From NCBI GenBank assembly GCA_902766395.1, contig CACXDL010000039.1, positions 1 to 35,006 of the forward strand: a DNA stretch of 35,006 nt, read 5' to 3'. This DNA comes from an uncultured bacterium (GTDB taxonomy: Bacteria; Cyanobacteriota; Vampirovibrionia; Gastranaerophilales; Gastranaerophilaceae). Made by a program: the position numbers and the translations under genes. Shown piece by piece: positions 18,814-32,569 of this stretch (position 1 is the first letter of the stretch; each line of letters starts with the position of its first letter). The notes beneath the pieces were generated by a model that ran no database searches, was not told where the DNA came from, and worked only from the letters and a program-made list of their open reading frames with translations.

Positions 18814-19719
18814 ATGTCATTAACGATAGATTCCACATTAGATTTTTTGCGAATGAGACTCGGTATATCCGAGGCTCGAATGATGGAATATGTAGGGAAA
18901 AGTGTAAAAGAAATCCTTGATGCTGAGGCTGCTCAGGGAAATCAGGCCGCAATTCAACTTGCGGCGGATATGTTTTCAAATCCAAGCCAATTGATTGAAT
19001 TATTCCAGTTGGCAGATCCTCGCAATAAGTTAGTAATAATTAAAACAATGACTTCTTCCCAGATGGCAAAGCTTGTGCCAATGTTGGAACAGGATGATTT
19101 GGTTCAGGGTTTAAGATATTTTACAATGGATTCTTTAATGGATATGTTGCAAAAAATTCCTAAAGAAGAACTGGTAAAAACTGTTTTCCAGATGTTTTCA
19201 GAAAAACAAATTATTGAGCATATGCCGCTAGAACAATTGGACAAATTACTCACAAGTACGGATATGGACAAAGGTCTTGTGTTGAAGAATTTGAAAGCTA
19301 TTCCGGAAATGTATTTGCAACAAATTTTAGAAAGCGTTACAGGGAAACAAGCCCCTACAAACCAAATTGACTTAATTAATGAAATTTCACACCTTGGAGA
19401 TGCTGACTACAAACAAGCTCTTAAAAATTTTGAACCGGAACAAAAAAGAAAACTTTCATTATTAATTACAAGCAGCGACAATAAATATTATTTGAGCTTT
19501 GATGCCGATGCATATACTCATATGATTTCGAGAGACCGAGAAAAAGAAGACACCGTCAAGGCCATGGGAGTAATTAAACCTGAATATTTGCATAAAATGA
19601 TGGAAGAATTACCTCCTGATTTGCTTGCAATTGTTATAACTCAAATTGATACCGAAAAATTTGCAGATGCATTAATAAATAAATATCCTGAAATACTTGC
19701 CAAATTTATTGCAGGTTAA
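18814..19719 (+). CDS. Helical-repeat protein, MgtE_N/FliG-like
   Basis: A 301-aa soluble all-helical protein. From about residue 60 to 165 it has short repeated helix pairs such as MAKLVPMLEQDDLVQGLRYF and LVKTVFQMFSEKQIIEHMPL. A similar unit returns at the end (YLHKMMEELPPDLLAIVITQ, then FADALINKYPEILAKFI). This is the pattern of the MgtE N-terminal and FliG-middle superhelix, used for protein-protein contact. It has no membrane part, so it is not a transporter. The ATG at 18814 has CGGAG at 7 nt. The pilT gene follows 119 bp downstream on the same strand, which makes a partner of the pilus machinery a reasonable but unproved guess. Confidence 0.8.
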   Translation: MSLTIDSTLDFLRMRLGISEARMMEYVGKSVKEILDAEAAQGNQAAIQLAADMFSNPSQLIELFQLADPRNKLVIIKTMTSSQMAKLVPMLEQDDLVQGLRYFTMDSLMDMLQKIPKEELVKTVFQMFSEKQIIEHMPLEQLDKLLTSTDMDKGLVLKNLKAIPEMYLQQILESVTGKQAPTNQIDLINEISHLGDADYKQALKNFEPEQKRKLSLLITSSDNKYYLSFDADAYTHMISRDREKEDTVKAMGVIKPEYLHKMMEELPPDLLAIVITQIDTEKFADALINKYPEILAKFIAG

Positions 19720-19784
19720 TTTAATTATCATTTTGGATGTTTAAAGTAAATATTATGCCGGTATATGCTGTAATAGTATGAATA

Positions 19785-19828
19785 TTGTATATACAATTCT
19801 TTTTTTTATTATAATATTGTATATACAA
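19785..19828 (+). promoter_or_regulatory. pilT promoter with twin palindromic operators
   Basis: The perfect palindrome TTGTATATACAA occurs at 19785-19796 and again at 19817-19828, inside a 16-bp direct repeat (AATATTGTATATACAA) spaced 32 bp, three helical turns. A perfect TATAAT (19810-19815) lies between them. Its -35 position falls in the first palindrome (TTGTAT, spacer 19). The predicted start point and the first bases of the ribosome site AAGGAG fall in or next to the second. This is the layout of a repressor-controlled promoter. Confidence 0.65.
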
Positions 19829-19838
19829 GGAGAATATT

Positions 19839-20909
19839 ATGACATTTGATTTTAATGATTTTTTAAAAAAGGTTGCAAACATGAATGTTTCTGATATTCA
19901 TTTATTGCAAAATGAGCATCCTATGCTGCGTATAAATAACAAAATTACAAAGATTAATATGCCCCAATTAACAAAAGAAGATATGTACAGCATATGCAAA
20001 CAAATATTACCTACAAGTTATCAAGATAAAATAGAAGAAATTTATGATCTTGATTTTGCTATGGAAATTCCCGGACTTTCCAGATATAGGGTTAATTTGT
20101 CAAAATCAACAGGTTGTTTTAAGATTGTTATGAGGTTAATCCCTTTGCAAATTAAATCCCTTGAAGAATTAATGGTTCCAAAATCAATAGAGGAATTTAC
20201 AAAATATAATAACGGGCTTGTGGTTGTAACAGGTGCAACAGGTTCAGGGAAATCAACGACAATCGCAGCCATGTTGGATTATATAAATCGAACTACGAAC
20301 AAGCATATTATTACATTAGAAGACCCTATAGAGTTTGTATATAAAGGTAAAAAGTGTACAATATCTCAAAGGCAAGTCGGAATTGATACGCCAAGCTTTG
20401 CTGATGGTATAAAATATGCCCTTAGACAAGATCCTGATATTATATTTATCGGAGAAATAAGGGATAGTAATACAATTACGGCTGCGTTGAATGCTGCTGA
20501 GACAGGACACCTCGTATTTGCAACGATACATACAAGAAGTGCTGTTCAGACTATTAACCGTGTTATTAACATGTTTCCTGCAGAAAGCAGAGATTTTATC
20601 CGTTGTCAATTAGCTAATGTTTTGGTAGGCACTATATCGCAAAAATTAATTCCTACTGCTGACGGAAAAGGGAGATTGCCTGCTTGTGAAGTTTTAGTCA
20701 ATTCTTCAACTGTAAAAGACTATATAGAAAAAAATAAACTTGATGATATATATGATGTAATGTCAAAAGGTCTTACAAGCGGTATGTCTACTATGAATAT
20801 GGCATTATATGAATTATTTTCTTCAGGACGTGTAACTCGAGAAACCGCAGAAGAATATTCTGATAATCCAAACGAATTGCTGGCAATGATGCGAGGGGTT
20901 ACAAGATAA
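19839..20909 (+). CDS. pilT: Type IV pilus retraction ATPase PilT
   Basis: A hexameric cytoplasmic ATPase that depolymerises type IV pili for twitching and DNA uptake. At 356 aa it matches PilT, not the longer PilB. Walker A is GATGSGKST (about residues 131-139). The Asp box contains TLEDPIEFVY and Walker B is RQDPDIIFIGEIRD. The His box is AETGHLVFATIHT. The C-terminal PilT-type AIRNLIRE motif is not preserved; VKDYIEKNKLDDIYDVMSKG occupies that position, so a PilT-like paralogue is possible. AAGGAG lies 6 nt before ATG. It converges on pncC with a 17-bp gap. Confidence 0.94.
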   Translation: MTFDFNDFLKKVANMNVSDIHLLQNEHPMLRINNKITKINMPQLTKEDMYSICKQILPTSYQDKIEEIYDLDFAMEIPGLSRYRVNLSKSTGCFKIVMRLIPLQIKSLEELMVPKSIEEFTKYNNGLVVVTGATGSGKSTTIAAMLDYINRTTNKHIITLEDPIEFVYKGKKCTISQRQVGIDTPSFADGIKYALRQDPDIIFIGEIRDSNTITAALNAAETGHLVFATIHTRSAVQTINRVINMFPAESRDFIRCQLANVLVGTISQKLIPTADGKGRLPACEVLVNSSTVKDYIEKNKLDDIYDVMSKGLTSGMSTMNMALYELFSSGRVTRETAEEYSDNPNELLAMMRGVTR

Positions 20910-20926
20910 TTTAATTCTAAAGGCAA

Positions 20927-21415
20927 TTAGGAAATTTTGTTATCTAAAAGAATTGAAAGAGCCAATTCCAAAGCTTTGTGCGCAAATTTTTGTTTCATAT
21001 CTTTTCGGGGAATACTTGGAGATAATTTTATTTCTTTTACAGTTACAATACCTTTATATTTGACCGAGCAATACATCAAGCCCACCGGCTTTTTATCAGA
21101 ACCACCTGTTGGACCGGCAATACCAGTAGTGCACAAAGCAACATCACACCCCGTCACTTCCTGCAAACCCTCAGCCATTGCCTGAGCACATTCTGCACTA
21201 ACAGCTCCATAATTATTTAAAATATCCCATGAAACATTTAAAACAGAATTTTTAGCCTCGTTTGCATATGTGACAAAATTTAATTTTATATATTCAGAAC
21301 TTCCGGAAACATCTGTGAGTCTGGAGCTTACAAGACCTCCTGTGCATGATTCAGCAGTTGCGATTGTTAATTTATTTTCTTTTAAAATTTGCCCTAATTC
21401 TTCTTCTAATGTCAT
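20927..21415 (-). CDS. pncC: Nicotinamide-nucleotide amidase / CinA C-terminal domain
   Basis: A stand-alone CinA C-terminal domain (162 aa), the enzyme form that deamidates NMN to NaMN in NAD recycling. Signatures are TIATAESCTGGLVSSRLTDV and CTTGIAGPTGGSDKKPVG. The N-terminal competence-associated CinA domain is absent. It starts two bases after the radA stop, with AGGA in the radA end, so translation is probably coupled. It is the last gene of the lptC-to-pncC row. Its link with dprA and radA fits the historical competence association of CinA. Confidence 0.92.
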   Translation of the reverse strand: MTLEEELGQILKENKLTIATAESCTGGLVSSRLTDVSGSSEYIKLNFVTYANEAKNSVLNVSWDILNNYGAVSAECAQAMAEGLQEVTGCDVALCTTGIAGPTGGSDKKPVGLMYCSVKYKGIVTVKEIKLSPSIPRKDMKQKFAHKALELALSILLDNKIS

Positions 21416-31732: not shown

Positions 31733-32569
31733 TTGGGTAGGTTAATGGAACAGGAATTTAATTTTTCTTCATATAGCAGCATTAAGCGTCTTGGGGAAGA
31801 TGAGTTAGCTGCGCTATGGGAAAAATATCTTACAAACAAATCCGACAAACAAACAAGAGATCAAATAATCGTACAGTATATCTACCTTGTCAGATATGTT
31901 GTCGGACGCGTAAAGGTTTCTTTACCTTCATCAATTTCAGTTGAAGACATTGCAGGATACGGGGTAGAAGGATTAATTAACGCTGTAGAGAGATTCTCTC
32001 CTCAAAAAAATTCAAGATTCGAAACATATGCACTTATAAGAATTAGAGGAGCAATACTTGATAAAATAAGATCTCAGGATTTTCTGCCAAGAAGTATTCG
32101 CAAAAAAATTAAAGATATTAAACAGGCGACCGAGACACTTAAACAAGAACTAGGCAGAGCCCCAACAACAAATGAAATTGCCCAATATCTTGATATGGAA
32201 CCCGCAAAAGTTTCACAAATAATGTCTGAAGATGTAACAATTACTTCTATTTACGAAAAACGAGGCAACTCGGAAGACAGTATGGAAATAATTGACACTA
32301 TAGAAGATTCGAATAAACTAAACCCACATGAAATAGCCGAAGAACACAATGTAAAAACAGACTTGCAGAGGGCACTTATGAGATTACCGGAAAGAGAAAG
32401 AGTATTGATGGTTTTGTACTATCAAGAGAACATGACAATGAAAGAAATAGGACAAACACTGAACATGTCTGAATCACGCGTATGCCAACTTCATGCTCAG
32501 GGACTTATGAAACTCAAAAATATTCTGAATGAAAACAGAGCATCCAGACTCCAAAAATCTATCGTTTAA
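31733..32569 (+). CDS. FliA/WhiG-type sigma factor
   Basis: An alternative sigma-70 family factor of group 3 (about 278 aa). Regions 2-4 are all recognisable: region 2 (EDIAGYGVEGLINAVERFSP, FETYALIRIRGAILDKIRSQ), the region 3 helix (LGRAPTTNEIAQYLDMEPAK) and region 4 (LPERERVLMVLYYQENMTMK, then IGQTLNMSESRVCQLHAQGL). The FLPRSIRKK stretch is typical of FliA/WhiG. Start: the TTG at 31733 has AAGGA at 5 nt; the ATG at 31745 has only a close TAGG and would trim four residues. In cyanobacteria the related SigF controls pili, which makes pilus or envelope genes plausible targets. No anti-sigma gene is adjacent. Confidence 0.93.
   Translation: MGRLMEQEFNFSSYSSIKRLGEDELAALWEKYLTNKSDKQTRDQIIVQYIYLVRYVVGRVKVSLPSSISVEDIAGYGVEGLINAVERFSPQKNSRFETYALIRIRGAILDKIRSQDFLPRSIRKKIKDIKQATETLKQELGRAPTTNEIAQYLDMEPAKVSQIMSEDVTITSIYEKRGNSEDSMEIIDTIEDSNKLNPHEIAEEHNVKTDLQRALMRLPERERVLMVLYYQENMTMKEIGQTLNMSESRVCQLHAQGLMKLKNILNENRASRLQKSIV

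Follow-up and report, generated by a model that had tools for sequence, protein, structure and literature searches.

Two identical, perfect palindromes bracket a putative promoter in the 35,006-nucleotide stretch of DNA analysed here (the window), which homologs and synteny assign to a genus of the Candidatus Gastranaerophilales (Melainabacteria). This raises the question of whether they form an operator, which gene such an operator would control, and where the corresponding regulator might be encoded.

Palindromes and promoter layout

The operator-like 12-bp palindrome TTGTATATACAA occurs at positions 19785-19796 (O1) and again at 19817-19828 (O2), with a start-to-start distance of 32 bp and a gap of 20 bp, each copy being contained in one of two identical 16-bp direct repeats on the forward strand (AATATTGTATATACAA; 19781-19796 and 19813-19828). 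A -10 region lies between the palindromes at 19807-19815 (forward strand), where the hexamer TATTAT (19807-19812) overlaps a perfect TATAAT (19810-19815). O1 is located over the -35 position and is centred near -32 relative to the predicted transcription start at about 19822, which itself is covered by O2, at a distance of 3.05 helical turns from O1. O2 ends at position 19828 and is immediately followed by a GGAG ribosome-binding site (19829-19832, forward strand) and the ATG of a PilT-like gene at 19839. In these respects, the layout agrees with an earlier note on this DNA, which had described twin palindromes in direct repeats, a perfect TATAAT between them, and a second palindrome at the start point reaching the ribosome site. 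The same note had placed the first palindrome at the -35, which is correct for the position, but the -35 element itself is poor; the putative hexamer within O1, TTGTAT, matches TTGACA in three of six bases and is separated by 19 nt from TATAAT or by 16 nt from the overlapping TATTAT. Because of this weak -35, the promoter is absent from the list returned by a consensus promoter scan.

The pair is rare. Elsewhere in the 1.70-Mb host genome there is no exact copy of TTGTATATACAA, and its 10-mer core TGTATATACA occurs five times in total; the exact pair (10-30 bp apart) was found neither in the 45 other genomes of the genus nor anywhere in the order among the 382 other genomes searched. When the window was simulated 300 times with a third-order Markov model, two of the simulated windows contained any pair of identical perfect 12-bp palindromes within 60 bp, making an origin by chance unlikely. 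Sites with one mismatch lie mostly within genes, and the intergenic ones are never paired; a wider regulon in the host was, hence, discarded.

On the basis of this arrangement, the two palindromes probably constitute a double operator, through which a dimeric repressor would block the promoter of the PilT-like gene. Both the binding of a protein and repression by this binding are what we infer from the sequence. One repressor dimer would occupy O1 over the -35, while a second dimer would bind O2 three turns further along the same helical face, covering the start point beside the ribosome site; together, the two dimers would exclude RNA polymerase and, thus, exert steric repression. A site at about +1, as is the case for O2, is a position typical of repressors. 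The promoter blocked in this way would serve solely the PilT-like ATPase, and the earlier proposal of an operator-like layout giving this gene a promoter separate from the upstream gene stands up on both counts.

An extra PilT-family gene at a variable locus

The gene downstream of the palindromes (19839-20909, forward strand; 356 amino acids) encodes a PilT/PilU-family ATPase, scoring 438 bits against TIGR01420 (cut-off 319.1). In common with the known type IV pilus retraction ATPases of this family, it possesses Walker A and the Asp and His boxes, along with the catalytic Glu of the Walker B region, and its nearest solved structures are those of PilT. It differs from them in being a third, divergent copy at a lineage-specific locus. 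The ordinary pilT of the same genome is found on another contig (C26) and is 53% identical to the paralog, and a further PilT-like gene is present on contig C76 (41-42%). No ortholog of the paralog was found in 383 genomes of the order, 137 of which contain matches at E <= 1e-125, one per genome except for the host genome, which has two. In both trees, the paralog forms a long branch and is placed outside the clade of ordinary PilT proteins of the order; it would, hence, be either a fast-evolving old copy or an acquisition from an unsampled relative. A plasmid source was rejected, as plasmid matches covering a quarter of the query did not exceed 68% and those covering a tenth did not exceed 73%; a viral source was likewise rejected, no viral relative having been found.

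The designation of the gene as pilT in the earlier note is, therefore, right as to the family but misleading as to identity; the rest of its interpretation, comprising the layout, the separate promoter and a window devoid of a matching regulator, holds. Since the gene is an extra paralog without ortholog, conservation upstream of pilT in relatives says nothing for or against an operator. The ordinary pilT promoters have TTGTGC or TTGTCA about 17 nt from TATACT or TATAAT, and no palindrome was seen at the loci inspected.

The upstream neighbour (18814-19719, forward strand) codes for an MgtE_N-domain protein and is present as a single copy in 45 of the 46 genomes of the genus; downstream, the convergent cinA follows on the reverse strand (20927-21415). 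In relatives, these two genes likewise converge, often at a distance of 0-50 bp, and the gap is nearly closed in many of them, while in the host genome it is occupied by the promoter and the PilT-like gene. The paralog is, thus, a lineage-specific insert between two conserved convergent genes. Other species carry other cargo at this place, namely a protein with a match to the ParE toxin together with a small upstream gene (genome G021), a CHAP-domain protein (G031, with genes of similar size and placement in G029, G032 and G040), or a pilin-like gene (G033 and G038). The palindromes were also considered as what is left of a ParDE promoter like that of G021; this was rejected, as the promoter there is without the site and the 12-mer lies inside parE. 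A weak, AT-rich 18-bp repeat (83%) covers two stop codons, that of the upstream gene (19709-19726) and that of the paralog (20899-20916). The ends of a mobile element were dismissed, given that nothing beyond this repeat flanks the insert.

A recurrent operator word and the search for its regulator

At least two regulator families unrelated to each other are known to have this word, or its core, in their operators. In the trehalose operon of Bacillus licheniformis, the box of TreR, a repressor of the GntR/HutC type, is identical to the 12-mer TTGTATATACAA, and two boxes are present at one promoter (PMC11356801). The AbrB/MazE-like Phd antitoxin of the Phd-Doc pair of Enterococcus faecalis binds an operator with the core TGTATATACA near its TATA box (PMC13034048), which resembles the arrangement in the host; there, however, a single palindrome controls a toxin-antitoxin pair, whereas two palindromes precede a pilus ATPase here. 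Viral contigs scanned for the exact pair yielded five cases, of which three, on unrelated contigs, precede small regulator or toxin genes, i.e., those for a DUF6290 protein, for a ribbon-helix-helix (RHH)-like protein (a label based on reading the sequence, without Pfam support) and for a BrnT toxin. These pairs are reminiscent of RHH or BrnA-type antitoxin operators of phages and mobile elements, from which the host locus differs in having no adjacent toxin-antitoxin gene and no BrnT in the genome. Among the matches listed in viral contigs, some of which are near-duplicate loci, the flanked 14-mer ATTGTATATACAAT precedes a gene start in 33 of 121 cases, more often than a composition-matched control palindrome (12 of 121; Fisher p 0.0008). 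Judged by its occurrence with TreR and Phd, by the viral pairs and by this enrichment, the word is a recurrent operator sequence that does not name its regulator. In one viral contig (L206), an array of TTGTATATACAA sites at 2778-2898, spaced mostly by 22 bp, precedes an RHH-like gene. An intergenic site of the host, ATGTATATACAA (G000:C31:2708-2719), is identical to the second of the TreR boxes given for B. licheniformis; a secreted-protein-like gene starts 116 bp downstream of it.

In line with the earlier note, which had seen no matching regulator gene in the window, no gene for a DNA-binding repressor is present among the window proteins scanned; the sole gene of regulator type is that of a sigma factor (31733-32569). 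The earlier note had further suggested looking for site copies next to a TetR, MarR, GntR or XRE gene. The host genome encodes one GntR-family protein above the cut-off (C1:3553-4689; 378 amino acids), which consists of four tandem GntR-type winged helices, has no effector domain according to Pfam, with no UTRA among the Pfam matches listed, and belongs to the core of the genus (45 of 46 genomes). It is unlinked to the site and differs from TreR, of which no cognate representative was found in the genome. The promoter block of its gene, GCAAAAA...CTTGATGTTTTTTTACACATAGTATAT, is strikingly conserved. As cognate regulator, this protein was rejected, being core to the genus while the pair is unique, and having a promoter of its own without a TTGTATATACAA site. 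BrnT (PF04365) is absent from the host genome, and its three RHH_1 proteins, 62 amino acids each, have no site upstream of their genes; hence, neither was retained. Likewise, none of the three other exact TGTATATACA sites in the genome adjoins an evident antitoxin gene.

Local repressors usually autoregulate, and it speaks against the operator reading that no copy of the pair was found at any regulator gene examined. We infer that the regulator is encoded elsewhere, either in sequence missing from the draft genome, which is 93% complete and could, therefore, lack the gene, or by a gene without a matching site of its own. Comparison with the other systems points to an RHH, an AbrB-like antitoxin-type or a TreR-type GntR protein at least as much as to the TetR, MarR, GntR or XRE families. 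That the species has an inducible retraction motor, with a third PilT switched separately by a regulator new to the group, possibly the genus core protein with its four tandem winged helices matching the four half-sites present here, would be a long shot.

Alternative readings of the palindrome pair

An absence of function, with the palindromes being either a coincidence in AT-rich DNA or a relic brought in with the inserted gene, is unlikely. The region is indeed AT-rich, no regulator was found among the window proteins or among GntR, BrnT and RHH_1 in the genome, and a paralog without ortholog in the order offers no conservation to support the sites; the scarcity of such pairs in the simulated windows and in the other genomes searched, together with the close fit of the palindrome positions to a promoter, speaks against it. 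It is also quite unlikely, though possible, that the palindromes act in RNA, such that a read-through transcript pairs the two repeat copies by the ribosome site and efficient translation is limited to transcripts from the local promoter, in which copy 1 is missing. The upstream gene shares the strand, no forward-strand terminator is listed by the scan, and folding of positions 19720-19838 (-22 kcal/mol for this segment as a whole) joins both copies in a stem of 13 bp. However, the z-score of this fold is just -1.58, the stem stops before the GGAG, Rfam gave no match, and RNA pairing does not require each copy to be perfectly palindromic; this reading is, thus, not stronger than that of an operator. 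A terminator formed by the first palindrome and a T-run was rejected, with a hairpin of just -1 kcal/mol.

Activator sites are usually centred at -41.5. A protein that rescues the weak -35 (three of six bases) from the first copy would have its site near -32 instead, and the second copy on the start point would block transcription, making activation a very doubtful explanation. The double operator is a credible assignment for this lineage-specific paralog; the kind of switch is ordinary and already known, while the gene under its control is unusual. If real, it would mean that a pilus retraction motor has an on/off switch to itself in relatives of the cyanobacteria that live in the gut and lack photosynthesis, a group for which we know of no studied pilus regulation.

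The promoter region also contains a 38-nt imperfect repeat (74%) at positions 19720-19757 and 19804-19841, 84 bp apart, with both copies ending in AATATTATG; the repeat may reflect an older duplication of the promoter-start region.
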